Shown here: positions 43,971-64,000 of the stretch, piece after piece | Position numbering within the stretch: position 1 is the stretch's first letter | Layout of the letters: every line of letters starts with the position of its first letter | NCBI RefSeq assembly: GCF_003205515.1 | Contig: NZ_KZ826484.1 | Location: forward strand, 1 to 64,000 | Source: Litorivita pollutaquae | GTDB taxonomy: Bacteria > Pseudomonadota > Alphaproteobacteria > Rhodobacterales > Rhodobacteraceae | Direction: 5' to 3' | DNA length: 64,000 bases | The notes under the pieces: model-generated | Told to the model about the DNA's origin: nothing | Database searches by the model: none | What the model saw: the letters and a program-made list of their open reading frames with translations, nothing else | Translations under genes and position numbers: made by a program

Positions 43971-44326
43971 CCACATTTTCAAAAAGAAACGATATCAAGG
44001 CCCTTATGATAAAAAGCACCGGCGCGCACGCGATGTAACGAAGGGACCGCCGCTGTTATCGATGATCGCGATTCTCTTGATCTGACCGCATAAACGTCGG
44101 GTATAGAGTCGGGCTTTGCCGTGGCTGCATTCATTAGGTCGCCGATCAATCCGCATCCGCCGAGCCGCCCGTGCGCTACGGAGCCTTAATCACGGCGTCG
44201 GATGACAATAAACCAAGCGGGTCTTGCTCAAACATGATGATACCGGATTTGCGCCCCGATACGATGGCCGCAGCAGCACAGAAGACCAGCGGCCATCCCA
44301 TCGCAGCATCCGCGCATTACACCCTT

Positions 44327-44367
44327 AGTCGTATTTGCGCATCCCGTCGCAGCGCATAGGCTACACT
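44327..44367 (+). promoter_or_regulatory. Candidate pqqA promoter with RGTCGTA element
   Basis: AGTCGTA (44327-44333) lies 23 nt before TAGGCT (44357-44362), which overlaps TACACT (44362-44367), a possible -10. The AGTCGTA element is shared, as an 11-bp identity TAGTCGTATTT, with the alcohol dehydrogenase promoter at 53786-53796. Confidence 0.5.
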
Positions 44368-44393: not shown

Positions 44394-44498
44394 ATGGCTT
44401 GGACGAAACCAAAAGCAGTCGAAATCAACTGCGGTATGGAAATCAACATGTACGGCCCTTCGGACGATGATCGCGGCGCAGAACGCGACCTGTTTTAA
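44394..44498 (+). CDS. pqqA: PQQ precursor peptide PqqA
   Basis: A 34-codon gene with GGGAGGA upstream (44380-44386). The peptide starts MAWTKPKAVEINCGMEINMY and contains the E-x3-Y pair (Glu16, Tyr20) that PqqE cross-links to build the PQQ skeleton; it ends DRGAERDLF. Its length is slightly above the usual 22-30 residues owing to the acidic tail. It is followed after 22 nt by pqqB. High certainty from the EINMY motif and context. Confidence 0.95.
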   Translation: MAWTKPKAVEINCGMEINMYGPSDDDRGAERDLF

Positions 44499-47564: not shown

Positions 47565-49811
47565 TCACCCTAAATCCACGGGTACCGTGGTCGCGAGAAA
47601 CGCTTCAAGGTGGCGCGCATCAAGCGGTTTGGCCATCAACTCCACCTTCATCTCGGCGCAACTTTGACGCAACTCCGACGATCGGTTGGCGGAAATGATC
47701 CGTGCGGGGATATCCCCATACGTTTGCCGCAACCGGGCCACCACATTCAGACCGTTTTCACCATTGTCGAGCTGATAATCAATCAACATCGCATCTGGCT
47801 TGATCTGGATTTCATCCAGAAGTTCCATCGCCTCGTCGCCGGAATGCACATCCAAAACAGCGGCATTCCATTTGCCAAGCAGCAGGCTGATCGCACGGCG
47901 CACTTCGGCATCGTTTTCGACCAATAGGACAATCAATCCGCTTTCGGTCAGTTTACGTTCGCGGCGCGGCGTCGGCGCCGCAACCGGCAGAGCATTGTCG
48001 CCCTCGAAGCGTTGCATGTTCACAAAAAAGCCAGTCCCCTGCCCTGGCACCGACCACAGGCTAAGCTGGTGCCCCAGGCGCGTACAGGCACGTTCGACAA
48101 TGGCAAGACCAAGGCCAAGCCCTTCGGGGGCGCTGGCCGACGTATCAAGACGGTGGAACTCTTGAAAGATCGCGCTTTGATGTTCCTCTGCAATGCCCGG
48201 TCCGGTGTCCCACACCTCAAGCCGAACCGAACCGCCATTACGCCGCACCCCGACCAACACCCGACCGCTTTGAGTATAGCGGATCGCGTTGGCGATGAGA
48301 TTTTGCAAAATCCGGCTGATGAACAGCGGATTGGAGTAGACCATTGCCGATGTCCCGACGACGCGGAAATCAAGCCCCTTCATCTGTGCATGTGGCGCGA
48401 ATTCGTCACGCAGGCGGGCAAGGACGCGGCCCAAGGGGACGGCCGTTTGTTCCAACCCCGCAGTGCCCGCGTCGAGTTTGGAGATATCCAACAGCGCCTC
48501 GATGATGTTTTCGACACTTTCAAGCGCACCAAAGGCCTTGCGCACCGTATCCTGTTCAATCGGATCGCGGTCGGTTTCCGCCAGAGACGCAACATAAAGT
48601 TTCGCCGCTGACAAAGGTTGTAACAGGTCGTGACTGGCGGCGGCGACAAACCGCGATTTCGACGCATTGGCGCGTTCGGCCGCACTCAACGCATGTTCCA
48701 ATTCCAGCGTGCGTGCGGCCACGCGCTCTTCGAGCAAAGCGTTGGCCTCGAACAGGCGCTTTGCCGCCTCCCGCTCGGCGGTGATGTCCGTGAGCGACAC
48801 CACAAACCCGCGATCAGGCATTTCTTGCGCAAAGAAATCCAAAATGGCGCCGCTTTTGTGTTTCAGCTCGAACGACAGCGCGCGGCGTTTTTTGGGCGCG
48901 TTGACCCAATCGAGAACCGCCTCGCGCGGCATGGTTTTGGGAAAGATCAGCCGGTCCTGCATCCGGTCAAACAAAGTGTCAAAATGCGCGCCGAAGCGGA
49001 ATTGTGATGCAGGCAGCGCCAGCAATTGCCCGATCCGGTGGTTCCAACCCACCAGATGGGTGTCCTTGTCAAAAATCCCGACGCCTTGGTTCAAATGATC
49101 CAATGTGGCGCGAATCATGATCGCCTGTTGGTCCATCAACTTATCACGGGCTTGACGTTCCAACCGCATGATATCGGTCACATCGGTTTGCAAGATCACC
49201 GTGCCGCCATCGGGTGTGCGATGCGCAGACACCTGCACCCACCGATTTCCAACCAATTTGACGTTGAAAATCGCGTGTTCATCCTTGTGCCGTTCAAGGC
49301 GCATTTTGCGCCATGCGATGCGTTCCTCTGCGCTGCGCAAATCTATGCTGGTGCTGGAACTGACCGCATCGACATATTCCGCGAAACTCATACCCGGGAA
49401 GAGCTGCTCTTTGAGGTCGCCCAAATGCATCGAAAAACGCAGGTTATAGAGCACCAGAAGATTGTCGGGGCTGAAAAGAGCAAAGCCTTCTTCGACAGCT
49501 TCAATCGCGGCGGTCAAATCCGAACGCGCCGCTTCTGTGGCCCGGTTGGCCTCGGCGAGGCGGGCGTTGGATTCATTGAGCAGATCCAGCACCCGTTCAA
49601 GATCCTGAGTCCGCTGGCGCACCTGACCTTCAAGCAATGCCGCGCGTTCAAACTGTGCATAGGCCGCGCCGGAATCATTGGTCACCTGCTCCACCCGCCG
49701 CATCAATGCATCCGTGATTTGCAGCAATTTTTCATGCTGGCGTTCCAGCGAATCAGCAGGGTCGAGCAGAGTATGAACCATCACAGAGCCTTCAGAGGTT
49801 TCTTCGATCAC
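47565..49811 (-). CDS. Hybrid sensor histidine kinase, NahK/ErcS-like
   Basis: A soluble 748-residue kinase with no transmembrane helix. It has a coiled coil (about 20-100), two PAS-type domains (about 100-215 and 230-345), a second coiled coil, a dimerisation domain with FVAAASHDLLQPLSAAKLY (His394), and an ATPase domain with N-box NLIANAIRYT, DTGPGI and EGLGLGLAI. A C-terminal receiver follows (Asp678 in LIDYQLDNGE, Lys728). NahK/ErcS kinases share this layout and pair with FIST/NosP proteins. GTG 49811 overlaps the FIST gene stop; ATG 49781 is an alternative start. Confidence 0.88.
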   Translation of the reverse strand: MIEETSEGSVMVHTLLDPADSLERQHEKLLQITDALMRRVEQVTNDSGAAYAQFERAALLEGQVRQRTQDLERVLDLLNESNARLAEANRATEAARSDLTAAIEAVEEGFALFSPDNLLVLYNLRFSMHLGDLKEQLFPGMSFAEYVDAVSSSTSIDLRSAEERIAWRKMRLERHKDEHAIFNVKLVGNRWVQVSAHRTPDGGTVILQTDVTDIMRLERQARDKLMDQQAIMIRATLDHLNQGVGIFDKDTHLVGWNHRIGQLLALPASQFRFGAHFDTLFDRMQDRLIFPKTMPREAVLDWVNAPKKRRALSFELKHKSGAILDFFAQEMPDRGFVVSLTDITAEREAAKRLFEANALLEERVAARTLELEHALSAAERANASKSRFVAAASHDLLQPLSAAKLYVASLAETDRDPIEQDTVRKAFGALESVENIIEALLDISKLDAGTAGLEQTAVPLGRVLARLRDEFAPHAQMKGLDFRVVGTSAMVYSNPLFISRILQNLIANAIRYTQSGRVLVGVRRNGGSVRLEVWDTGPGIAEEHQSAIFQEFHRLDTSASAPEGLGLGLAIVERACTRLGHQLSLWSVPGQGTGFFVNMQRFEGDNALPVAAPTPRRERKLTESGLIVLLVENDAEVRRAISLLLGKWNAAVLDVHSGDEAMELLDEIQIKPDAMLIDYQLDNGENGLNVVARLRQTYGDIPARIISANRSSELRQSCAEMKVELMAKPLDARHLEAFLATTVPVDLG

Positions 49812-50965
49812 GATTCGGGAAGGTAAATCGCCACACCGGTCATTGTGTGGTTCACGTGTTTGGCGTCAATCTGTTCGCCGTAAGTCGCAAAACCAACAAC
49901 ACGGTTTTCTTTGAAAATCTGCGAAATCTGGTTGGTTTGCTGTTTTTGTGCCGCCTCCATGCGGCGCAGCAAACAATCGCAGACAAAAATCGTGTCGAGC
50001 GATCCCGCCTCGGCCAGCCCCCGCAATTCGCGCTCCAGATGCACGGCAATATCGTCGGGTTCGGCAAGTGTCAGAACCAAACCTTCGTCGATGGCAGAGA
50101 AGAACACCAAATCGTCGCTGTCTTCAATACGTTGAATGGCGCGCACATGATGGGCACCACCAATGCGCACCACAACCGGATGGGCGGCAAAGGTAAAGGT
50201 ATCGAGCTGCTCGGGCGACTTCCCCAAAATGCGGGCGTATTCGCGCGCGGCGGGTTCGGCATTGATCTCATGCACGATCCGGCGCGACGGATCGGCACGG
50301 GTCACCACCATGCGGGTCTCGGTCGGTGTCAAATGCGCGAGACTAAAGACCTTAACCGGGCAGTGGGTGCGCACCATGGTTAGCACACCGGCGTTTTGAT
50401 AAACTACGCCGCCGTAAGACAGATAGGTATTGGCAAAATCCTCACCGTCGGCGGCAGAACCACCAAACAATTGCATTGGCCCGAGACCGGGCGCGAGGGC
50501 GCTCATCAATTCGTCTTCTTTGCGCGACAACCCATCGACAGTCAGAAAGGCAAATTCATATGCCATATCGCGGGCGTCATGGGTCAATTTGGCACGCGCG
50601 CGGATTACATCGCCGATCAATGTCTGTGGATCGATTTCGTCAAGTTCCTCGATCAACAAGGTTTCGATTTGGAACAATCGGGCACGGAGCGCCACGGCGA
50701 CGATCTCTCGTTCGGTATAGCCCTCGGTCGATATTTCGCCCGCCGTGCTGCAACAGACCACCGGCGTCTCCCCGAAACATTCTGCGGCCCGCTGCACGAT
50801 ACTGGCGAAATCCGCCACGTTAGAGACGAACAGATACACAATCGACATATCTTCGTCGCCCAGCGCATCACGCAAATCGCGCACCGGATCCGCCGCATCA
50901 CACGGAGCATGGGCCGTCAACAATGACGAACCGGCTGCAAAAGCAGGTGGTTTGAGTTGGCCCAT
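49808..50965 (-). CDS. FIST-domain sensor protein, NosP-like
   Basis: A 385-residue soluble protein with an N-terminal FIST domain (about 35-225) and a C-terminal FIST_C domain (about 235-375). Markers are TPVVCCSTAGEISTEGY, LFGGSAADGEDF, IFVCDCLLRRMEA and VVGFATYGEQ. FIST proteins are ligand sensors; NosP proteins of this type bind haem and nitric oxide and inhibit a co-encoded NahK-type kinase in Pseudomonas and relatives. Here the downstream kinase overlaps by 4 nt. Whether this one binds haem is not visible in the sequence. Confidence 0.85.
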   Translation of the reverse strand: MGQLKPPAFAAGSSLLTAHAPCDAADPVRDLRDALGDEDMSIVYLFVSNVADFASIVQRAAECFGETPVVCCSTAGEISTEGYTEREIVAVALRARLFQIETLLIEELDEIDPQTLIGDVIRARAKLTHDARDMAYEFAFLTVDGLSRKEDELMSALAPGLGPMQLFGGSAADGEDFANTYLSYGGVVYQNAGVLTMVRTHCPVKVFSLAHLTPTETRMVVTRADPSRRIVHEINAEPAAREYARILGKSPEQLDTFTFAAHPVVVRIGGAHHVRAIQRIEDSDDLVFFSAIDEGLVLTLAEPDDIAVHLERELRGLAEAGSLDTIFVCDCLLRRMEAAQKQQTNQISQIFKENRVVGFATYGEQIDAKHVNHTMTGVAIYLPES

Positions 50966-51004
50966 TCTCCTCCCCGATCATAGGCGCGATCTTTTTATGG
51001 CAGT

Positions 51005-51736
51005 TTAGAAGCTGCTCCCTTCTCCCTGTGCAATGCTGGAAAACCGCGCTTCTTGCGCGATGAGCACGGCCTGTGTGCGGCTTTGCACCCCCAGCTTTCG
51101 CATAATAGCGGTAACATGCGCCTTAACTGTCGTCTCTGCAATCGAAAGATCATAGGCGATTTGTTTGTTCAGCTTACCCTCGCAAATCAGATTGAGAATC
51201 CGCGCCTGTTGATTTGTCAGGCTGGAGAGCCGCGTCAGCGCAGCCTCTTGTTCGCCTTCGGGGGCCACGTCCTCGTTCGGCATATAAAGACCTTCGGGCA
51301 CGAACACCTCGCCTGCGCTGATCGCGTCAAAAGCGTCGCGGAATACACTGCGCTGGCTATGTTTGGGGATAAACCCGCGCGCACCGGCGCGGATCGCCGA
51401 AGCAATAATGCGCGGTTCGGACATGGATGACACAACAATCACCGGCACCGAGGGAGCCGCGTTGATCAGGCGCAAAAGCCCGTCGAGCCCGTTGACATCC
51501 GGCAAGTTCAAGTCGAGGAAAATAATATCCGGTGACAGGCCCTCACCAAGCCGTTCCAGCGCGCCTTTGAGGCATTCGGCGGTTTTTACGGTCTGCACTT
51601 CAAGCACCGCGCGCAATGTCATCGAGAGCGCATCGCAAAACAGCGGATGGTCGTCGATCACCATCGCCGTGTTCAACGCCTTGTCAGACGTCCCCCGATC
51701 ATCGGGGCCCCTTTCGGTCGAGCGGGCGTGAGCCAT
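51005..51736 (-). CDS. LuxR/NarL-family response regulator, ExaE/ErbR-like
   Basis: A 243-residue regulator with a receiver domain (VIDDHPLF at 27-34, phospho-acceptor Asp75 in IIFLDLNLPD, Lys125) and a C-terminal LuxR-type HTH (about 172-235: LTNQQARILNLICEGKLNKQ, TTVKAHVTAIMRKLGV). Regulators of this type activate PQQ-dependent alcohol dehydrogenase genes in pseudomonads and methylotrophs. Of two ATGs, 51736 is better spaced from AGGAG. Followed after 39 nt by the FIST gene, so it is probably one operon with the sensor and kinase. Confidence 0.88.
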   Translation of the reverse strand: MAHARSTERGPDDRGTSDKALNTAMVIDDHPLFCDALSMTLRAVLEVQTVKTAECLKGALERLGEGLSPDIIFLDLNLPDVNGLDGLLRLINAAPSVPVIVVSSMSEPRIIASAIRAGARGFIPKHSQRSVFRDAFDAISAGEVFVPEGLYMPNEDVAPEGEQEAALTRLSSLTNQQARILNLICEGKLNKQIAYDLSIAETTVKAHVTAIMRKLGVQSRTQAVLIAQEARFSSIAQGEGSSF

Positions 51737-51765
51737 ACACATATCTCCTGAACAGTGGTGTTCTC

Positions 51766-51906: not shown

Positions 51907-53673
51907 TTATTTCACTTCGGCCAATTGCTTGGGCAATTTGAACGTCCACAACATGCCACCTTGGTTCAGGAAGCTGACCTTTTTGGCCACTTCACCACCC
52001 CAAAGAGGAACCGCGCCACCCCAACCGGAGATCACCGAAACATATTGCTCGCCGTCCATTTCCCATGTGACGGGCTGACCCACGATGCCGGAGCCGGTTT
52101 GGAAAGACCAAAGCTGTTCGCCGGTTTCATCATCAAAGGCGATGAAGTCACCCTGCGGTGTGCCGGTAAAGACAAGTCCGCCAGCCGTGGTCATTACGCC
52201 ACCCCAGAGAGGGGATTCGTTTTTGAATTCCCACTTCCATTCGCCGGTTGCCGGGTCGATGGCTTTGAGGCTGCCGATGTGATCTTCATACATCGGCTTG
52301 ATGGTGAAGCCGGAACCAAGATAGGCCGCGCCTTTTTTGTAGGTTACAGGCTCATTCCAGATATCCATGCCCCATTCGTTGGAGGGCACGTAGAACAGGC
52401 CGGTTTTCTGACTGTAGGCCATCGGCATCCAGTTTTTGCCGCCAAGGAAACCGGGGGCCGAAAAGACAACATCGCCTTTCTTGCCATCCGCCGCATCCGC
52501 CGGATTGCCCGGACGGTTGTCTTCGTTAAAGATCGGGCGGCCGTTTTCATCGATGCCCGACGCCCATGTGATGTCCTTCACAAACGGCGTGCCGGAGATG
52601 AAGCCGCCGGTTTCACGATCCAGAACATAGAAGAACCCGTTCCGGTCCGCCGTGGCGTACCGCTTGTTGCCGTCTTTGTCGGTAAAGGCGACGACTTCGT
52701 TCACACCGTCATAATCCCAACCTTCGCGCGGCGTGGATTGGAAATGCCATTTGATCTCGCCCGTGGCAGGGTCGATGCCGATACGCGAGGCCGCATAAAG
52801 GTTATCGCCCGCGTTGCCTTCGGTTGGCACCCCCGCGTTACGCAGATGGCTGTTCCATGGGGCGGGGTTACCGGCGCCAAACACGATCGTGTCTGTTTCG
52901 ATATCATACGATCCGCCAAGCCAGGTCGCACCACCGCCGGTTTTCCACATGTCGCCCGGCCATGTCGCATTCAGCGTGCCGGTCATAGAGGATTCTTCGC
53001 CGTTCAGCGTGCCCATATGGCCTTCGATCACCGGACGGGTCCAAACCATTTCGCCGGTTTCGGCGTTGCGGGCCTGAACTTCGCCCACGATACCAAATTC
53101 ACCACCGGAGTTGCCGGTAATCACAAGGCCATTCACGATCAACGGCGCCGCGGTATAGGAATAGCCCGCTCTGTAATCCGCGATTTTCTTGTTCCACACG
53201 ACATCGCCAGTCTTGAGGTTCAACGCCACCAAGCGCGCATCAAGCGTGCCGAAAATCACATTATCGCCGTAGATCGCGGCACCGCGATTGACGACGTCAC
53301 AGCAAGGTAAAATGCCTTCAGGCAGACGCGCGTCATATTGCCAAAGCTCTTTACCGGTGCGCACGTCAATCGCATAGATGCGCGAATAGGAGCCGGTGAT
53401 ATACATCACGCCATCATAGACCAACGGCTGTGTCTCCTGGCCGCGCTGCTTTTCACCGCCAAGTGAAAATGCCCATGCCGGCATCAGGTTTTTAACGTTG
53501 TCTTTGTTCAGTGTCTCAAGCGGGCTGTAGCGCTGCAAATCGCGCCCCATGCCGTTGGTAACAATCTGGCTCGTATTGGTCCGGTCGTTGGCCAGATCTT
53601 CTTCGGTCACTCCGGCGACAGCGGCCCCTGCCGCCATCATGCCGATCGCGACGGATGCGATAAAGCGATTCAT
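51907..53673 (-). CDS. PQQ-dependent alcohol dehydrogenase, lanthanide type (ExaF/PedH/XoxF-like)
   Basis: A periplasmic eight-bladed-propeller quinoprotein of 588 residues that oxidises alcohols and passes electrons to cytochrome c. Signal peptide about 1-20. Key residues are the adjacent Cys pair (124-125, PCC), metal ligands Glu192 and Asn269 ([10 protein letters not shown]), catalytic Asp320 and Asp322 in [10 protein letters not shown]. The extra Asp two residues after the catalytic one marks lanthanide-dependent enzymes. DNLYAASR and KWHFQSTP resemble ethanol-type ExaF/PedH more than methanol-type XoxF. ATG 53671-53673 follows GGGAGG. Confidence 0.92.
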
Positions 53674-53748: not shown

Positions 53749-53793
53749 AGGCTAGGGGAAGCGCGGCGCCCAAGGTATAAGCCAATAGTCGTA
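53749..53793 (-). promoter_or_regulatory. Candidate alcohol dehydrogenase promoter with TACGACT element
   Basis: On the minus strand TACGACT (53793-53787) is followed after 32 nt by the -10-like TAGCCT (53754-53749), 76 bp before the start codon. The same element and spacing occur before the Sel1 gene. Confidence 0.55.
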
Positions 53794-53924: not shown

Positions 53925-54368
53925 TTAGTCTTTGGTCAATTTCTCAGAGACAGCCGCGCCATCACGCGTGGTGATCGACCGCAGATAGGCCAGAATGAAA
54001 TCCTGCACAGTGCGATCCTCGATTCCCACATGGCGCATCTTGGTGCCCGGCATAAAACCAGTATTATCCTCCATCCACGCCCGCAACGCGGCTTCGGTCC
54101 ACACAATGCCAGAGGCCGCCAATGCGATAGAATAGTCATAGTTTTCGACCGTCCCTGCGCCCCGCCCGATAATATTTTCTAACGGCGGGCCGTAAGAGAC
54201 ATCTTCCGATTCATTCGCGTGGCACCGGTGACATTCACCATCATACAAGGCCTTCCCCGCATCGATTTTCACTTGGTTGTAAAGCGCGGCGCTTTCGGCA
54301 GAAACCGGGCCACTCATCGCACAAGCAACAAGCGCGGCAAAGGTTGCAGCACAAATAATGCGGGTCAT
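53925..54368 (-). CDS. c-type cytochrome, c550/XoxG-ExaB-like electron acceptor
   Basis: A 147-residue secreted class I cytochrome c. Signal peptide about 1-24 (ending VSA-ES). Haem-binding CHRCH (residues 47-51), and axial Met in the FMPGTKM region (about 109). Placed directly upstream of the quinoprotein dehydrogenase gene and in the same direction, it is the likely electron acceptor. Its own promoter carries a perfect FNR-type box. Family is certain; the pairing with the dehydrogenase is inferred. Confidence 0.88.
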   Translation of the reverse strand: MTRIICAATFAALVACAMSGPVSAESAALYNQVKIDAGKALYDGECHRCHANESEDVSYGPPLENIIGRGAGTVENYDYSIALAASGIVWTEAALRAWMEDNTGFMPGTKMRHVGIEDRTVQDFILAYLRSITTRDGAAVSEKLTKD

Positions 54369-54395
54369 ATCATGATCTCCTGATTGGTTGACCCG

Positions 54396-54437
54396 ATGCT
54401 ACGCCGCGCCGCATGAGCCGGAATTGATCGACATCAA
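54396..54437 (-). promoter_or_regulatory. FNR/Dnr-type box at -41.5 upstream of the cytochrome gene
   Basis: TTGATCGACATCAA (54424-54437) is a perfect TTGAT-N4-ATCAA dyad. On the minus strand TAGCAT (54401-54396) is a fitting -10, predicting a start near 54389 and placing the box centre about 41 nt upstream, the classical position for activation by FNR/FnrL or a NO-responsive Dnr/NnrR protein. The gene starts at 54368. Confidence 0.7.
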
Positions 54438-54454
54438 CAGGTCGCTCCTCCTTT

Positions 54455-54463
54455 GGTCGTAGG
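54455..54463 (-). promoter_or_regulatory. CCTACGACC element upstream of the cytochrome gene
   Basis: The minus strand reads CCTACGACC, identical over 11 bp (TGGTCGTAGGA on the plus strand) to the copy before the Sel1 gene at 55123-55133. It lies 53 nt before the TAGCAT -10 box, upstream of the FNR-type dyad. Confidence 0.45.
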
Positions 54464-54518
54464 AAACGCGGGCAAGATGCAGCAGATATCCGGCGCCGGC
54501 GCACGGCTTCCCCGCCGA

Positions 54519-55064
54519 TCAAAACATCGGACGGTATTTCCAATTGTCCGCGTCTGGCGTCACCTCGTCCAAATCATAATCGGCACGCTGCATCCGCTTC
54601 GCAATGGCCAACCCCTGCGCCGCCGCATCGTCAACCATGGCGCGGCCGGCTTCTATATCTTGCGAAACACCGCGCCCCCGCATCAACGACAGACCGTAAT
54701 TAAATTTGCCTACAGGATCGCCCGCTTCGGCCGCGCGGCGGCTCCATTCGGTTGCTGCGTCCGGGTTTTCCTCGCCCCCCAAACCGTTGTCATCCATCTG
54801 GCTGAGCCATGTCATCGCGCCAGTATATCCAGCCTCGGCGCATCGTTGGAAAAGCTCGCGCGCCGCCGTGTGGTCGCCCTTTTTCACCATCAGGTATCCG
54901 GTGGCACAGGTGACCATATCGGTTTGGCCGCGCCGGACATTCTTCATCACGCGGTTCAATGTCATCTCTTCGGGGTTCACACTCCCGCCGCCGCCGTCAT
55001 CCTCGCTTTGGCACAAGGCGGGTGTGGCCAATAGGGCCGCAGCGAGGGTCAATCGTATCAACAT
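54519..55064 (-). CDS. Sel1-repeat (TPR-like) periplasmic protein
   Basis: A 181-residue secreted protein. Signal peptide about 1-19 (ending ALC-QS). Followed by about three Sel1-type helical repeats: GDHTAARELFQRCAEAGYTGAM, ENPDAATEWSRRAAEAGDPVGK and DIEAGRAMVDDAAAQGLAIA (each with the A-x-x-G/A-x-x pattern). Such proteins act as scaffolds or assembly factors. Its place between the ABC permease and cytochrome genes suggests help in assembling the dehydrogenase system; no direct evidence. It has its own TACGACC promoter element. Confidence 0.78.
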   Translation of the reverse strand: MLIRLTLAAALLATPALCQSEDDGGGGSVNPEEMTLNRVMKNVRRGQTDMVTCATGYLMVKKGDHTAARELFQRCAEAGYTGAMTWLSQMDDNGLGGEENPDAATEWSRRAAEAGDPVGKFNYGLSLMRGRGVSQDIEAGRAMVDDAAAQGLAIAKRMQRADYDLDEVTPDADNWKYRPMF

Positions 55065-55085: not shown

Positions 55086-55130
55086 AGCCTACCAAAATAG
55101 GGTGCCTGCGTCATTGCGCGCATGGTCGTA
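55086..55130 (-). promoter_or_regulatory. Candidate Sel1-gene promoter with TACGACC element
   Basis: TACGACC (55130-55124) is followed after exactly 32 nt by TAGGCT (55091-55086) on the minus strand, 22 bp before the start codon. Same spacing as in the alcohol dehydrogenase promoter. It lies right at the 3' end of the permease gene. Confidence 0.55.
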
Positions 55131-55137
55131 GGATAGG

Positions 55138-55929
55138 TCACCCCTTGCGCCGTATCATCCCGCGGGCCGGATCATATCCCCAAAGCGCCAGCGCCAAAAA
55201 CACCATCCCAGCCGCACAGGTGACCGCCATGGCCCCGAAATTCACCTGTGCATAAAGCGCGAAACGGATCATTTCGACCGCATGGGTGAAGGGGTTAAAA
55301 GCGCAAATATCATGCAAGATCTCTGAGCTTTCCGCCATTCTCCACAGGGGATAGAGCGCAGAAGACAGGAAAAACATGGGAAAGATCACGAAATTCATCA
55401 CGCCGGCAAAATTCTCCAATTGCTGGATGAAACTCGACAACGCCAACCCGAGCCCGCCCAACATCAATCCGGCCAGAAACAGCGCGGGCAAGACAGCGAC
55501 ATATCCCGCCAGAGGCATGGTGATGCCGAACAAGGCCGCAATCACAAGAAATGTGTAGACCTGCAAAATCGAAATCAACGTCGATCCAATCAGCTTGCAC
55601 ACCAACAACCACCACCGCGGCATTGGCGAGGTCAGGAGCAAGCGCATCGACCCCATTTCACGATCATAGACAAGGCTGAGCGAGCTTTGCATGCCGTTGA
55701 ACAAAAGGATCATCCCGCACAAACCGGGGATAATATAGGTCTCGTAGGTGACATAGGTTTGGTAAGGCGGGATAATCGACATGCCCAAAGCGGCCCGAAA
55801 CCCTGCGGCAAACACCAAGAGCCAAACCAAAGGCCGCACCAAGGCGGCGACAAATCGCTCGCGTTGCCGGACAAATCGCAATGCCTCACGCGCCGCGATC
55901 GCCCGCAACACCAAAACCGCGCCCCTCAT
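55138..55929 (-). CDS. ABC-2-type permease of the PQQ-alcohol system (PedC-like)
   Basis: A 263-residue membrane protein with six hydrophobic segments, ABC-2 type. Markers are RQRERFVAALVRPLVWLLVFAAGF, VTYETYIIPGLCGMILLFNGMQ, DREMGSMRLLLTSPMPRWW (cytoplasmic loop) and the FIFPMFFLSSALYP-type NFVIFPMFFLSSALYPLW segment. It pairs with the ATPase gene upstream (4-nt overlap). In PQQ-alcohol clusters this exporter is conserved but its substrate is not established. Confidence 0.85.
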   Translation of the reverse strand: MRGAVLVLRAIAAREALRFVRQRERFVAALVRPLVWLLVFAAGFRAALGMSIIPPYQTYVTYETYIIPGLCGMILLFNGMQSSLSLVYDREMGSMRLLLTSPMPRWWLLVCKLIGSTLISILQVYTFLVIAALFGITMPLAGYVAVLPALFLAGLMLGGLGLALSSFIQQLENFAGVMNFVIFPMFFLSSALYPLWRMAESSEILHDICAFNPFTHAVEMIRFALYAQVNFGAMAVTCAAGMVFLALALWGYDPARGMIRRKG

Positions 55930-56660
55930 AACGCCACCCCCGCATCTTGCGCCGCGCCGGTCAGCTCCAAGAACACCTGCGTTAATGGCCGCCCCGCCGC
56001 AATATCGCCGGCCATGCCATTTTTCAAAATGCGACCCTGATCCAGCATAATCAACCGGTCTTCAGCGCGAACTTCATCGGTCAAATGCGTCGCCCAGAGG
56101 ACACAAAGCCCCGCCTCGGCCAGAGCATGCACATGCGCCACAAGCCCCTGCCGCGCCGCCACATCAAGTCCAACAGTCGGTTCGTCCAAGAGAAGCACTT
56201 TAGGGTCATGGATCAAAGCGCGGGCAATCTCGGCACGGCGGCGATGCCCGCCGTTGAGGTTGCGGGCCTTTTCATCGGCCCGTTCCCGCATGTTAAGCTG
56301 ATCCAAAGCCGCATCAATCCGGCGCGCGGCATCTTTGCCGCCAATGCCTTGCAGCGCAGCAAAATACGACAGGTTGCGCCGCACTGACAAATCAAGATCA
56401 AGCGTGGTTTGTTGGAACACAACCCCCATTTGCGCCAAGGCCGCACGGGGGCGGGTGGCCAAATCCGCACCAGCGATTTTGATGCTGCCCTGCGGTGCCG
56501 TGAACAGCCGCGTGAGCAATGAAAACAGCGTTGATTTTCCGGCCCCATTGGGACCAAGCAGAGCGCAGAACTCTCCGGCGGCGACGTCAAAAGACACGGC
56601 GCTCAACGCTTGTTTCGTGCCGTAGGAAAAACTCAGATCCCGCGCCTCAATCCCGCTCAT
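55926..56660 (-). CDS. ABC transporter ATPase of the PQQ-alcohol system
   Basis: A 244-residue ATPase: Walker A GPNGAGKST (about 36-44), Q-loop VVFQQTTLDLDLS, the family-typical LNGGHRRRAEIARAL in place of the classical LSGGQ (signature LNGGH), Walker B VLLLDEPTVGLD and THLTDEV with the switch His. The VFQQTTLDLDLSVRRNL and NGGHRRR features mark ATPases co-encoded with PQQ dehydrogenases. Overlaps the permease start by 4 nt. Confidence 0.88.
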   Translation of the reverse strand: MSGIEARDLSFSYGTKQALSAVSFDVAAGEFCALLGPNGAGKSTLFSLLTRLFTAPQGSIKIAGADLATRPRAALAQMGVVFQQTTLDLDLSVRRNLSYFAALQGIGGKDAARRIDAALDQLNMRERADEKARNLNGGHRRRAEIARALIHDPKVLLLDEPTVGLDVAARQGLVAHVHALAEAGLCVLWATHLTDEVRAEDRLIMLDQGRILKNGMAGDIAAGRPLTQVFLELTGAAQDAGVAL

Positions 56661-58141: not shown

Positions 58142-59344
58142 TTAGTTTCCTCCAAATGCGCGGCAGGTGCTTTCGGGCTCGTCAACCCCGAGGCTGTCGA
58201 GTTCGTTACTCTGGTGCAAGAACCCTTCGAGCGGCGCAGTGACAACCACAGCATCGTCGTGAAGCAAGGGGATGGGTTGGCGCAATTGGCCGTTCCAACC
58301 GCGATAGGACAACGGGCGACCTTTGAAGCCTGCCAATTCGAAATTATCCGATAGGATATAGGATTGAACTGTCTCTATTTCTGCGGAATTCATGCGGGTC
58401 ATTGCTTCGCCCAAGCTGCGCAGCGCAGCCCATGCCGCGTAATCGCGCGGCTGCATATCGCGTCCCGCACGCTCCGAAAACCGCGATTGCAATTGCGCCG
58501 CACCCCATTGTTCCACCACGCGACCCCAGGCGGCGGGACGCAAACCGACCGAACCGGCCACCGGTCGCGGGAGCCATGTGTTATATACGATATAGCGGGC
58601 AAAATCATTGGCCTCATCTGCAACAAGCAGCACGTCATGTTCACCCAGCTTTTGCGTAAACAAAGGCACCTCTTGGGCGGCAGTACGGCGCATGTCCGCC
58701 TCAATCCCCCATTCCGCCCGCGCGCCGGGTTTAAGCCCGAACTTCGTCAAACTCGTCTCTAACGCCGCAGCAAAAGCCTGATCCTCTGGTGCCGGACCTG
58801 CAATCAATGCAGTCTTGCTCCAACGTTTGAACAACAAAAACTGCGTCACCGCATCGGCCCGCATCGCGTATGACGGGGCAGTATGCAGCAAGTTGGCGCG
58901 GCACTCGGCGCTGCGCAGCGCCGAATGGGCGGCCCCGACATTGAAGATCAAAGCGTCCTGCGCTTGCGGCAAATCCGCAATTCCGAGCAAAACCTCCGGC
59001 GCGGCATCTACGATCAGATAAGGCGAGACAGCCAACGCCTCCCGCGCTGCATCAAGCGCCTCTTCAGGTGAAACAGTGACGGTTTCAAGGTGGTAGTGAT
59101 GCCCCAAAAATCGGCCGGTGGTGGCGTTATCCTCTAGACCAAGCGCAGCCCCCGCCGCGCCCAAATCATCAGGCACCGGATCGAGGTTCGATAAGGTGGG
59201 GGAAGCTGGCGGGCGCGCAGACAGATAGGTCATCGCCATATGCAGCCCATCCTCAGAGGCCGCATCAGACAGCGCCACGCTCGCACCGCCAAACAGGCCT
59301 GCCTGGACTGCCAACACCATTACCATACGAAAAACCCGGTTCAT
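58142..59344 (-). CDS. ABC-type substrate-binding protein of the PQQ-alcohol system
   Basis: A 400-residue exported protein with the Leu/Ile/Val-binding-like fold. Signal peptide about 1-27. Landmarks are AAGAALGLEDNATTGRFLG, EALAVSPYLIVDAAPEVL, ALIFNVGAAHSALRSAECR, and DVLLVADEANDFARYIVYNTWLPRPV (two parts: VLLVADEAND and YNTWLPRP) with the C-terminal DDAVVVTAPLEGF. It is the first gene of the operon of binding protein, propeller, unknown protein, ATPase and permease. The ligand is unknown. An upstream GGTCGTA/TAGGCT promoter is visible. Confidence 0.85.
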   Translation of the reverse strand: MNRVFRMVMVLAVQAGLFGGASVALSDAASEDGLHMAMTYLSARPPASPTLSNLDPVPDDLGAAGAALGLEDNATTGRFLGHHYHLETVTVSPEEALDAAREALAVSPYLIVDAAPEVLLGIADLPQAQDALIFNVGAAHSALRSAECRANLLHTAPSYAMRADAVTQFLLFKRWSKTALIAGPAPEDQAFAAALETSLTKFGLKPGARAEWGIEADMRRTAAQEVPLFTQKLGEHDVLLVADEANDFARYIVYNTWLPRPVAGSVGLRPAAWGRVVEQWGAAQLQSRFSERAGRDMQPRDYAAWAALRSLGEAMTRMNSAEIETVQSYILSDNFELAGFKGRPLSYRGWNGQLRQPIPLLHDDAVVVTAPLEGFLHQSNELDSLGVDEPESTCRAFGGN

Positions 59345-59363: not shown

Positions 59364-59449
59364 AGCCTAGAGCAGCGGTTTTCCTATCGCTACTACGACC
59401 AACGTCGCGCCCGATAAGTGTGTAAACCAAAGTCCAATAGCGATAGCCT
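59364..59449. promoter_or_regulatory. Divergent promoter region with RGTCGTA element and 9-bp inverted repeat
   Basis: Minus strand: GGTCGTA (59400-59394), 24 nt, TAGGCT (59369-59364) toward the binding-protein operon. Plus strand: TACGACC (59394-59400), 43 nt, TAGCCT (59444-59449) toward the cytochrome gene. A perfect inverted repeat CTATCGCTA (59384-59392) / TAGCGATAG (59438-59446) flanks the region. Confidence 0.5.
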
Positions 59450-59500: not shown

Positions 59501-60187
59501 ATGTCATCTTCGCGCAAACTGTCGGCGCGCGCCGCTCTGATTGCACTTTGCACACTGGCTGGAGCCGGCGGTGTTTATGCTCATGGCGATGTTGCACCGC
59601 AGCCGATGAACACCGATGCGCTGCCCGATGTGGGTGATGAATGGTTGATTGAAAACCCCTACCGCGATCAGGGCGAAGAGGTGTGGACCACTGCCATCGA
59701 AATCGGAGCATCGGGGTATAACCAGAACTGCGCGCGCTGCCACGGGCTTGAGGTAATATCGGGCGGTTTGGCCCCCGATCTACGCTATCTTGAGGCCGAG
59801 GAATATGGTGACGAATGGTTCGCCGAACGGTTTCGAACCGGCTACACCCAGAATGGCACCACGAAAATGCCTGCCTTCGAAGAGGTTCTCGGGCAAAAGG
59901 CCAGCTGGGCCATTCGCACCTATATCGAAACGCGGCCGGATCAGGACATGCTCGATGAATATGCCGATGAATTGCACAAGATGCGCGATGCGCTGGCCGA
60001 TGGCAGCGCCGATGTGGCGACGGTCAAACCCCGCCTTGAGGACATCGCCGGCAAGATCGAAACACTTTCCGGCGCACCCGTGGCTGATTCCATCGCCTTT
60101 CGCGCCGCTAAACAGCTCGATGGGTCAGAGGACAGTATGAAACAGGCCGCTGAAACGCTGACCATCGGGCTATCGGTCGCGCATTAA
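59501..60187 (+). CDS. pedF: Cytochrome c-550 PedF-like
   Basis: A 228-residue secreted cytochrome c. Signal peptide about 1-27 (ending VYA-HG). Haem site NCARCHG (about residues 87-92), WFAERFRTGYTQNGTTKMPAF carries the axial Met, and an extended helical C-terminus (about 150-228) is typical of the PedF group found with PQQ alcohol dehydrogenases. Divergent from the ABC operon and one nt before the next gene. Likely second electron carrier of the alcohol-oxidation chain. Confidence 0.85.
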   Translation: MSSSRKLSARAALIALCTLAGAGGVYAHGDVAPQPMNTDALPDVGDEWLIENPYRDQGEEVWTTAIEIGASGYNQNCARCHGLEVISGGLAPDLRYLEAEEYGDEWFAERFRTGYTQNGTTKMPAFEEVLGQKASWAIRTYIETRPDQDMLDEYADELHKMRDALADGSADVATVKPRLEDIAGKIETLSGAPVADSIAFRAAKQLDGSEDSMKQAAETLTIGLSVAH

Positions 60188-61094: not shown

Positions 61095-61991
61095 CTAAGC
61101 CTGCCTTTGCGCAACTTCGCCGGCGTGGCTGACAAGAATGGCGCGCGCGACATCTGGGCGGCGCGCCAAGGTGGCGTCGATTTCATCCACTGTCATATGA
61201 CACATCGCGGTTGAAAGCGCATCCGCCACGGCGGCGGTCGCGGCCTCGACCGTGACAGAAGACCAACGCGCAGGCGACAGACCAAACGGATCCAAAATGT
61301 GGCTCTGTTCTGGCCCAATGTTCATTACAGCGGGGCTAGACGTGGCCAAAGCCGCGCCGTTCAGGCTGCGCCAACCATGCAGACCCAAGACCGGATCGGA
61401 CAGACCCAAACGGAACGGGCCGCCGAGGCTGCGAAACTCGCCTATGTTGATCAGAACCTGCGCCGCGCCCGCAGCCCGCAGATGTTCGGTGACCCGATCC
61501 GTGGCGTATCCCTGCGCAATACCGTTAAGGGTCAATGCTTGATCGTCGCCAATCGAAACGGAGGCCGCGCGACGGTGCACCCTGTGCATGCCTATCGCGG
61601 CGCGGGCGGCATGCGTATCGGTACCCGCCGCCAAAGCCAACCAAAGCGGTTGCACCGTGGGATCAAAATGTCCCGATGTGACGCCATGCATCTCGTGGCA
61701 TAGGCTGATCAAATCGGTGAAGTCCTCTGGGGCATGATGCACGGTTTTGGCAGTATTGAGCCGAGCGAGTGTCGATGTATCATCGTGGAGACTGAACAAC
61801 TTCTCGATGTCTGCCAAAAGGTTCGGAATGTCGCGCAACGCCCCGCCCTCCATGCCATAGAGCGTCACTTCGGCCTCGGCACCCAAGGCACGCCCACGCC
61901 AGGATGCGGGCGCGCCCCGCGTGTGGCCAACCGTGCCCAGCGCCGTCGCAGCCGCAGTGATCGACAAAAATCTGCGCCGGTTCAGCCTCAT
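61095..61991 (-). CDS. apbE: FAD:protein FMN transferase ApbE-like
   Basis: ApbE covalently attaches FMN to threonine of target proteins. The 298-residue protein has a twin-arginine signal (NRRRFLS at residues 4-10) and a family core: GHFDPTVQPLW, LNGIAQGYATDRV (usually GIAKGYAVD), IGEFRSLG and a late AATAAVADALSTAM block with the metal-site T/D. Its gene overlaps the preceding NosR-like gene by ATGA; that protein carries a candidate flavinylation motif, so this is probably its dedicated modifier. Confidence 0.87.
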   Translation of the reverse strand: MRLNRRRFLSITAAATALGTVGHTRGAPASWRGRALGAEAEVTLYGMEGGALRDIPNLLADIEKLFSLHDDTSTLARLNTAKTVHHAPEDFTDLISLCHEMHGVTSGHFDPTVQPLWLALAAGTDTHAARAAIGMHRVHRRAASVSIGDDQALTLNGIAQGYATDRVTEHLRAAGAAQVLINIGEFRSLGGPFRLGLSDPVLGLHGWRSLNGAALATSSPAVMNIGPEQSHILDPFGLSPARWSSVTVEAATAAVADALSTAMCHMTVDEIDATLARRPDVARAILVSHAGEVAQRQA

Positions 61992-64000
61992 GCGGCGATC
62001 TCCCGTTTGTCTTTGCGTGCCTTAAGGATCAATGGCACGCATTGCGCCGGATCATCATGGATGGTCACGCAATCAAGGCATTGAAAACACTCCGAGTAAT
62101 CAATCGCGCCGCTTTGTTTGATTGCGCCGTATTGGCATTTAACCTTACACAATTGGCAGGGTGATCCGCATTCGGCGCGGCGCTCGATCCATTTGCGTCC
62201 GCGCAAAAGCCCGCCGATGGCCATCACCGCCCCAAGCGGACAAACATACCGGCAGAACCCTTTGAACGTCACCATGCCGAGCAACAACCAGAACGCCGCA
62301 TAGGCGACATAGTACCATTCGCGGACGAAATAGACGGTGATCGCGGTTTTAAACGGCTCGACCTCGGCGACTTTATCGACGCTGGCGGGATTGTAGAACA
62401 CGGTTCCGATCATCGCGGCAAGTACGACATATTTGACGGATTTAAGCCGTGCATCCCATTTCACCGAGGGTTCGAATTTAGGCAGGCGCAGCACACGACC
62501 AAGCCGGTCGGCGAACTCCTGCAGCGCGCCAAACGGGCACAGCCAACCGCAGAAAAACCCACGGCCCCACAGCACAAAGCTGACGATCACCACGGCCCAG
62601 ATCATCAAGGAAAACGGATCATAGAGCAGATAGGCAAAACTGCCGCCCTCCCATAATGTGCGCATCGTCGCCAGCACCGTAACGATGCTGAGCTGTCCCT
62701 GCCCGTGCCAGCCGACGAAACCAAGCATCACAGCCAGAACGCCCAAGCGGATGGCGCCATATCTGGGGTGGGCGGCGAGACGCTTCATGCCGAATGCCAT
62801 CCCAATGCCCAGCACCATCAAACCCACCGCCAGCAGGATCAAATCAGTGCTGCGCCCGCGCAAGGCCTCTACCCATGGCGGCACAGCGCGCGGCACGATG
62901 TCCTTTTTGTAAAACCGCGCATCCGTTTGCAGTTCGAGCGGAAGATTCTGACTGCCGATCTGCGGTTGAAACATCCCATGCGCCCGCGCCGCCTGAAGGG
63001 TAAGCGTCCAGGGACGCGATGGATCAAACCCGAGCCGCCGATCCGATCGCAAGATGATCATCGCCGCGTCTTGTAAATCCTCGGGCATATCCGCGTGCAG
63101 GGTGATATATAGATCGGCATCCCGTAGTGCGATCGGCAACCCATCTTGCGTCGCGGATATCCGGTCGGGCGCGGTATTGCGCACGAAATCGTCCGACACC
63201 AACCCGTGACGCCCCGCATCAATCAACAAGAGCGGTGCGGCATTGGGGGTCACGGCTTGAAACCCTGCAAGTTCGGCCAAGGTCTCCTCGGAAAGAACGG
63301 CATTGGCAATGGAGTGCGGTCCCAGATCAACCACATATAGGTCGAGATATTGCCCGCCCGGATCGCTTAACGCCTCGGGATCATCCCCCTCCCAAAGCGT
63401 GCCTGCAAAGAGTGTTTCAACATCGGCGTTCGAAACTGTGAGACGACCAACAAGGCCTTGATCAAGCAAATCTGCCCATGTGAGATCCTCTTTTATGTCG
63501 GGATCGGGATATGCGGGCGGGCCGATGTTCACGCCTTGCATTTTTTCACGGGCGACGGCGAGGGTCGCGGCAAGAATGCTTTCATGGGCAATGCGCACGC
63601 TCGCCGTGGCTTTGGTCACACCGTCAAGATACACCAAAGCCCCGCCCGCATCCCCACCGCCATAGGGGGTGCCGACAACCAAAGGCGTGCTGATCGCATG
63701 GCCGCGATATTGTTCGACAAATTTATGAAACGGCGCTTGGCCCAATCCGGAGACGAAGATTGGCTCGTTATGATCCAAAAGCTGCACGTCGATAAATTTG
63801 CCTTCAGCGTCGAGAATTACCAACAGGTTGATCGGAGCGCCGGAAAACCCCGGAAGCGGTGCAAGCGGTTCGGTTTGAAAGACAAATCCCGCCTCGGCCC
63901 CGCCGGAGTTGAGCAATTGATAAACGCCGTTGTCATTGACCAATTCACCCAAGGAGTAGGGCGGCAGCACGTAGGGTTCAATCGCCGCGCGATCCAGAAC
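61988..64000 (-). CDS. NosR/NirI-like FMN-binding, 4Fe-4S membrane protein (5' end outside window)
   Basis: At least 671 residues are visible; the frame stays open to base 64000, and the first internal start-like codon (63970) is not the true start. The periplasmic FMN-binding domain has LVYLDGVTKATASVRIA, whose Thr in TKATA suits ApbE flavinylation. About six membrane helices follow, with CGWLCPFGALQE and FCRYVCPLGAV, and a ferredoxin-like tail with CGSPCQLCKVKC and CFQCLDC. NosR relays electrons to nitrous oxide reductase; here the partner may instead be the PQQ system or its maturation. Confidence 0.88.
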   Translation of the reverse strand, partial: VLDRAAIEPYVLPPYSLGELVNDNGVYQLLNSGGAEAGFVFQTEPLAPLPGFSGAPINLLVILDAEGKFIDVQLLDHNEPIFVSGLGQAPFHKFVEQYRGHAISTPLVVGTPYGGGDAGGALVYLDGVTKATASVRIAHESILAATLAVAREKMQGVNIGPPAYPDPDIKEDLTWADLLDQGLVGRLTVSNADVETLFAGTLWEGDDPEALSDPGGQYLDLYVVDLGPHSIANAVLSEETLAELAGFQAVTPNAAPLLLIDAGRHGLVSDDFVRNTAPDRISATQDGLPIALRDADLYITLHADMPEDLQDAAMIILRSDRRLGFDPSRPWTLTLQAARAHGMFQPQIGSQNLPLELQTDARFYKKDIVPRAVPPWVEALRGRSTDLILLAVGLMVLGIGMAFGMKRLAAHPRYGAIRLGVLAVMLGFVGWHGQGQLSIVTVLATMRTLWEGGSFAYLLYDPFSLMIWAVVIVSFVLWGRGFFCGWLCPFGALQEFADRLGRVLRLPKFEPSVKWDARLKSVKYVVLAAMIGTVFYNPASVDKVAEVEPFKTAITVYFVREWYYVAYAAFWLLLGMVTFKGFCRYVCPLGAVMAIGGLLRGRKWIERRAECGSPCQLCKVKCQYGAIKQSGAIDYSECFQCLDCVTIHDDPAQCVPLILKARKDKREIAA

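Follow-up and report, generated by a model that had tools for sequence, protein, structure and literature searches.

In the stretch of Litorivita pollutaquae DNA analysed here (64,000 nucleotides, hereafter the window), the gene of a small cytochrome c within a PQQ-linked alcohol-oxidation cluster is preceded by an exact FNR-type box. The box, its spacing, its conservation, its restriction to the cytochrome gene and the presence of FnrL are features of the sequences themselves, and the reading that we consider quite probable is a class II promoter that would be activated by FnrL at low oxygen and co-activated by the response regulator of the cluster.

Geometry of the box and the predicted promoter

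The box is an exact TTGATN4ATCAA palindrome at 54424-54437, reading TTGATCGACATCAA on the plus strand and TTGATGTCGATCAA on the coding minus strand, and it sits in a 150-nt gap (54369-54518) flanked by two minus-strand genes. The promoter and the gene downstream comprise the following features:

54446..54461, minus strand: TACGACCAAAGGAGGA, cluster-wide element and putative response-regulator site; top matrix match of the window, 21.5 bits
54424..54437, minus strand: FNR-type box TTGATGTCGATCAA, exact TTGAT-N4-ATCAA match, kept in orthologous promoters
54401-54396, minus strand: predicted -10 hexamer TAGCAT, with predicted +1 at about 54389; TAnnnT at the matching offset in relatives
53925..54368, minus strand: small class I cytochrome c of 147 aa, c550/CycA-like, gene downstream of the box; PF00034 30.3 bits, cut-off 21.3

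On the minus strand the order is TACGACC (54461-54455), 17 nt, TTGATGTCGATCAA, 22 nt and TAGCAT (54401-54396), followed by an AGGAG-containing leader about 21 nt long and by the cytochrome ATG at 54368. The +1 was predicted with the usual spacing after TAGCAT, and relative to this predicted start the centre of the box (54430.5) falls at -41.5, which confirms the claim of an earlier note on this DNA that a perfect FNR-type box lies about 41 nt before the start given by TAGCAT. Since both genes flanking the box are on the minus strand, the cytochrome gene is the only one that the box can serve; a divergent or shared promoter is ruled out by the same orientation, the Sel1-repeat gene ending at 54519. 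A sigma-70 consensus scan at the box promoter gave no promoter-like pair and no recognisable -35, which is consistent with an activator-dependent promoter, yet gives no support by itself. A terminator scan found nothing.

No other exact TTGATN4ATCAA occurs within the 64,000-nt window, and dinucleotide shuffles of the window held an exact match in 9 of 100 cases (mean 0.09), so that a single match proves little and the box is only mildly unusual in the window alone; the site is significant because of its conservation. The whole genome (3.42 Mb) contains 20 exact sites, against 0 for the reversed pattern, and by eye nine of them are inside reading frames (presumably pdxA- and trpC-like frames among them), one (L003) is unclear and ten, including that of the window, stand before genes. 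These genes we take to be ccoN-like, ccoG-like, cytochrome oxidase subunit II, cydA-like, Rrf2-type and two Crp/FNR genes, and further exact sites lie in what are presumably the gap between a 5-aminolevulinate synthase and a peptidase gene and the region before a small unknown gene. Exact sites before such genes make FNR-type regulation plausible in this genome and leave the single case to be judged by conservation.

The cytochrome and its cluster

The best NCBIfam match of the cytochrome is the CycA model NF043008, whose score of 68.5 bits is under the cut-off of 240, so that the protein falls outside CycA as the model defines it; it carries CxxCH at residues 46-50, and its nearest PDB chains are cytochrome c chains. 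The cluster genes on which the argument draws are listed here:

51907..53673, minus strand: PQQ alcohol dehydrogenase (ADH) with WDYDG; TIGR03075 775.9 bits, cut-off 480
59501..60187, plus strand: PedF cytochrome c550, alternative ADH partner; TIGR04494 194 bits, cut-off 122 (equivalog)
51005..51742, minus strand: ErdR-like NarL/LuxR response regulator, candidate TACGACC binder; PF00072 and PF00196, NF041830 167.7 bits
49808..50965, minus strand: NosP-like FIST protein, candidate NO sensor; NF041558 368.2 bits, under the cut-off of 450
47565..49811, minus strand: NahK/ErcS-like hybrid histidine kinase; NF041832 360.8 bits, under the cut-off of 400

The closest solved chains of the ADH are 6zcv and 6zcw (WDFDG), which we take to be PedH, followed in third place by 1flg (WDFSG), which we take to be ExaA. 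Lanthanide PQQ-ADH is marked by an extra aspartate at position +2 relative to the catalytic one, and the WDYDG of the window's ADH has this aspartate, which points to the lanthanide type. The pedF gene is 5 kb from the boxed cytochrome gene, in the same cluster, and the electrons of the ADH may go to either PedF or the boxed cytochrome; for the latter, a role as general carrier is just as possible. In P. aeruginosa, a regulatory system reportedly governs the ADH and not cytochrome c550 (work attributed to Schobert and Gorisch, 2001).

Behind the ADH, the genes of the ErdR-like, NosP-like and NahK-like proteins follow one another in a single run (47565-51742, minus strand), and the same three-gene set lies beyond the ADH in 9 of 20 neighbourhoods of relatives. 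The cluster also holds a NosR-like protein (61988-63970, minus strand; NF046105 456 bits, cut-off 1000) and, beside it, an ApbE protein (61095-61991, minus strand), both apart from the nosRZ-like genes found elsewhere in the genome; this pair recurs in the stretches of at least 3 of 20 relatives, of which the others may end before it. A PedC-type permease and a PQQ-linked ABC ATPase (55138-56660, minus strand) both score above their cut-offs, and a review names PedA1A2BC a lanthanide transporter (PMC12997753).

Conservation of the box and its restriction to the cytochrome gene

Orthologous promoters were examined in two sets of relatives. The first set comprised 29 relatives from 29 genera (30 loci minus that of the window); 33 of 296 genomes, window included, reached E <1e-38, three of which yielded no locus. 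TTGA-N6-TCAA was found in strict form in 18 of the 29 and in 24 when one mismatch was allowed, against means of 0.08 and 1.5 (largest values 1 and 6) in first-order random resamples; in the remaining five, the 200 nt searched held no such box. The second, named set consisted of the best 80 of 153 relatives and partly overlaps the 29. Here the place 52-82 nt before the start codon held a strict box in 41 of 80 promoters and a box with at most one mismatch in 59, and none in 21, whereas four equally wide control windows gave 0, 1, 1 and 1 strict boxes, and 0, 2, 3 and 4 when one mismatch was allowed. One relative (L128) is counted in this set by a one-mismatch site, its strict site being 165 nt before the assumed start.

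Downstream of the box, TAnnnT follows after 21-23 nt in 44 of the 59 box-bearing relatives and in a single case at a different offset within 8-35 nt; this count was made without a tie-break and is the figure relied on, a tie-break toward 22 nt giving 54 of 60. The distance from box to TAnnnT is the geometry of a class II FNR site, and the site is likely a class II FNR-type promoter element through which the cytochrome gene would be regulated.

Among the cluster genes tested, the box is confined to this one. Twenty larger neighbourhoods were drawn from the 29 relatives, with per-gene promoter counts covering the genes found in each stretch and starts set by homology, and of the cytochrome promoters 13 of 20 had the box, whereas the 179 promoter stretches examined for 15 further genes of the cluster had none (ADH 0/18, pedF 0/17, sel1 0/16, erdR-like 0/9). 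The ADH promoters of the named set likewise lacked it (0/59). In 21 named relatives no ADH was found in the examined stretch, which was short in some cases, and 17 of these keep a strict box and 19 a box with at most one mismatch; the box thus goes with the cytochrome. Of the six Roseibium/Labrenzia relatives, five carry a strict box where it is usually found; the stretch searched contained TACGACY in none of the six. In the three of these that were inspected (L128, L165 and L171), the cytochrome gene is divergent from genes that by eye resemble the NosR-like and ApbE genes of the window.

Regulators that could read the box

In alpha-proteobacteria, the targets of FNR, FixK and DNR have one sequence in common (PMC2908626), so that which of them reads the box cannot be told from its sequence alone. 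Two candidates are encoded in the genome. FnrL scores 464 bits with NF045989 (cut-off 300), its Fe-S cysteines lie in CDDCPIRHRAVCARC, and it is found in all 29 relatives of the first set with 58-86% identity. The second is a Crp/FNR gene that lacks FnrL's N-terminal cysteine cluster and adjoins norCB-like genes and nirS; the label "Dnr-type" used for it is our own, its best NCBIfam model being FtrB, below the cut-off, with no family above it. A COX1-family protein adjoining this gene was read as NorB, NirS was recognised by PF02239 (494.8 bits), and NosZ is also present. The norCB-like genes, nirS, nosZ, a nosR-like gene and the Dnr-type regulator form a denitrification island (L088, L089). 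Copper nitrite reductase gave sub-cut-off matches only; NirS was found instead.

The Dnr-type regulator is the basis of the strongest alternative, in which this protein and NO would mainly read the box and the cytochrome would supply electrons for denitrification. The shared target sequence and the presence of nirS, norB-like and nosZ genes along with a Dnr-type regulator in the window's genome speak for it, and the Bradyrhizobium cycA c550 provides a parallel, as it depends on both FixK2 and NnrR and acts for NirK and NosZ (PMC6710368). The distribution among relatives argues otherwise. NorB occurs in 16 of 29 relatives and the Dnr-type orthologue (E <1e-70) in 13, or in 22 at E 1e-10 when weaker paralogues are admitted; among the 18 strict-box genomes, 9 are without NorB and 11 without that orthologue (6 with no match at E 1e-10 and 5 with weak ones only; other NO-sensing paralogues may be present), and among the five box-less genomes, four carry NorB and four the Dnr-type regulator. 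We therefore consider an NO-read box unlikely. With FnrL in 29 of 29 relatives and the Dnr-type regulator and NorB patchy, oxygen through FnrL is the common denominator, and FnrL is likely the reader of the box, although NO may add to the oxygen signal in the window's genome. The earlier expectation that the cytochrome rises under low oxygen or with NO is accordingly favoured in its first half and weakly supported in its second.

Binding of FnrL could also lower expression, as at the aa3 oxidase genes: in R. sphaeroides, FnrL lowers transcription of coxI and coxII by way of a box of this kind (PMC2908626), and R. capsulatus cycA2, a possible counterpart of the boxed gene that its authors label an exaB orthologue, is 3.5-fold higher aerobically (PMC5643017). 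The place of the box near -41.5, its fixed distance to the -10 and the lack of a recognisable -35 are, in contrast, the arrangement of an activator, and repression appears still less probable than reading by the Dnr-type protein.

The TACGACY element and its spacing from the box

The element upstream of the box recurs at other promoters of the cluster, where it was located with a scoring matrix built from relatives:

53778..53793, minus strand: TACGACTATTGGCTTA, element in the ADH promoter; matrix match
44318..44333, minus strand: TACGACTAAGGGTGTA, element before pqqA (44394-44498, plus strand), reverse to the gene; matrix match
55115..55130, minus strand: TACGACCATGCGCGCA, element before the Sel1-repeat gene (54519-55064, minus strand); matrix match
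59394..59409, plus strand: TACGACCAACGTCGCG, element between the binding-protein gene (58142-59344, minus strand) and pedF; matrix match

Nine matrix matches in the window score at least 10.0, five of them at cluster promoters, and random resamples give 2.65 matches above 10 per window. In the neighbourhoods, TACGACY was present on either strand in 17 of 18 ADH promoters (58 of 59 in the named set) and was found in 19 of 20 cytochrome, 12 of 16 sel1, 8 of 17 pedF and 4 of 9 erdR-like promoters, and in none of 17 promoters of the beta-propeller gene. In the element counts for the 29 relatives and in the spacing list of the named set, the first two positions of TACGACY were allowed to be T/G and A/G, respectively. 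The consensus in cytochrome promoters is TACGACCAAAGgA, with a strong and much better conserved left half and a weak right half when set beside the TACGACYAAAGTCGTA-like inverted repeat of ErdR/CrbR (ACTU) sites. Genome-wide, a one-mismatch TACGAC pattern is not enriched (51 matches versus 99 for the reversed control). A third exact genomic match of TACGACYAWWGG (C3:276294) lies by eye within the frame of a GMC-type oxidoreductase and was taken as chance.

The element looks like the site of the cluster's own regulator. The best family of the response regulator is NF041830 (ErdR), whose score is under the cut-off of 390, so that the protein is named ErdR-like only and its role as the binder is a guess.

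Element and box keep a phased distance. In the named set, the spacing is 27-29 nt in 41 promoters and 17-18 nt in 5 (46 of 48), the two remaining having 12 (L120) and 22 nt (L112); the smallest spacing is listed per promoter, and L120 also has one of 29 nt. The L112 promoter combines a strict box with a TACGACY-type element out of phase with the others. The composite pattern TACGACYAAWG-N{12,26}-TTGAYNNNNRTCAA, allowing spacings of 16-30 nt, was searched in 394 genomes and gave 14 matches (that of the window, 8 in genomes among the 29 and 5 new ones) compared with 1 for the reversed control. All 14 precede an orthologue of the cytochrome, 34-60 nt separate the box from the homology-set start, and the spacings are 17, 18, 27 and 28 only. 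On one weakly resolved tree, with states given only to spacings 16-18 and 26-29, the fewest changes between short and long spacing number 7. Since the ten-base step is about one helical turn, the most likely arrangement has both proteins acting on the same helix face. Of the earlier suggestion that a TACGACC element upstream allows two signals to be integrated, the element therefore stands as conserved and phased with the box, and the integration itself is likely.

An accidental, functionless palindrome, for which the 9 of 100 shuffled windows with an exact match and the 9 of 20 genomic sites inside frames (by eye) could be cited, is contradicted by the conservation, the positional constraint and the composite matches, all 14 before the cytochrome, and is highly improbable.

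Proposed mechanism

We infer binding, activation, the identity of the second regulator and the path of the electrons from this evidence. FnrL would be the main reader of the box and would activate the cytochrome gene when oxygen is low, and the ErdR-like NarL-family regulator encoded behind the ADH would most likely bind TACGACC on the same helix face. The cytochrome would receive the signal of the alcohol cluster and, alone among the cluster genes tested, also a low-oxygen signal, and the extra cytochrome could provide periplasmic electron-carrying capacity for high-affinity oxidases or denitrification.

A more elaborate form of this FnrL-based reading is tentative, and we hold it with somewhat less than even confidence. 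The promoter may act as a phased two-sensor gate, in which FnrL (for oxygen) and a NosP/NahK-driven regulator (for alcohol and possibly NO) both touch RNA polymerase from one face, the second site having moved almost only by whole turns, and which, by marking a single electron carrier, would let cells decouple the amount of cytochrome from that of dehydrogenase as oxygen falls. If such a gate is real, lanthanide-dependent alcohol oxidation can run into high-affinity or denitrifying respiration. It may be speculated that, if the NosP/NahK-like pair feeds the ErdR-like protein, NO acts via TACGACC and thereby reaches more than one cluster promoter. The P. aeruginosa NosP hands NO on to NahK, which in turn feeds HptB and RsmA (PMC12997753).

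Such a conserved low-oxygen switch would affect a single cytochrome of the cluster, both in Roseibium and in numerous marine Rhodobacteraceae. PQQ alcohol oxidation commonly counts as an aerobic trait, and the switch predicts that its electron outlet is reshaped at low oxygen. Moreover, TACGACC offers a testable second regulator site for the PQQ clusters of Rhodobacteraceae.

Comparison with known systems

At the FNR promoter of E. coli nir, a NarL site lies near -69.5. The E. coli nrf and Neisseria aniA genes also combine an FNR promoter with a second signal that arrives via NarL/NarP (PMC1802743, PMC5434802), and the promoter described here would resemble them in joining FNR dependence to the signal of a NarL-family regulator. 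The site of those promoters answers to nitrate or nitrite, whereas the promoter described here carries TACGACC, which belongs to an alcohol-oxidation cluster, and has a small cytochrome c gene as its target. Another small soluble c550 under CRP/FNR-family control, as probably applies here, is the Bradyrhizobium cycA product (PMC6710368); in contrast to it, the window's protein is far under the CycA cut-off, and PQQ does not appear in the text of that article.

The TACGACYAAAG core is shared with the ACTU motif of CrbR/ErdR, for example TACGACTAAAGTCTAAA, which is bound by a LuxR-family regulator (PMC5715377). That motif belongs to acetate genes of gamma-proteobacteria and is an imperfect inverted repeat, whereas the left half dominates here. 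The same regulator and the same boxes, for example TTGACctgcATCAA, are known from the predicted FNR/FixK/DNR regulons of alpha-proteobacteria (PMC2908626). No PQQ-linked cytochrome appears in the rows covered from the R. sphaeroides FnrL table and the core FNR list of that work; a possible relative is the set with ID 2551 ('cytochrome c class I'), which has no R. sphaeroides gene and is placed just ahead of the FNR block. No report of the site was found in the literature on FnrL with PQQ alcohol dehydrogenase or cytochrome, as represented by titles and abstract beginnings, mostly outside subscription papers.

The cluster itself is most readily compared with the Pseudomonas ped/exa cluster, which comprises PedE/PedH, PedF, AgmR and NosP-NahK (PMC12997753) and with which it shares the ADH type, the pedC and ABC ATPase genes, PedF, the NosP/NahK-like pair and a LuxR-type regulator. 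Unlike that cluster, whose review does not contain the word FNR in its text, the one described here has a separate c550-like gene with an FNR box, which would make this gene a new target of a known promoter type.
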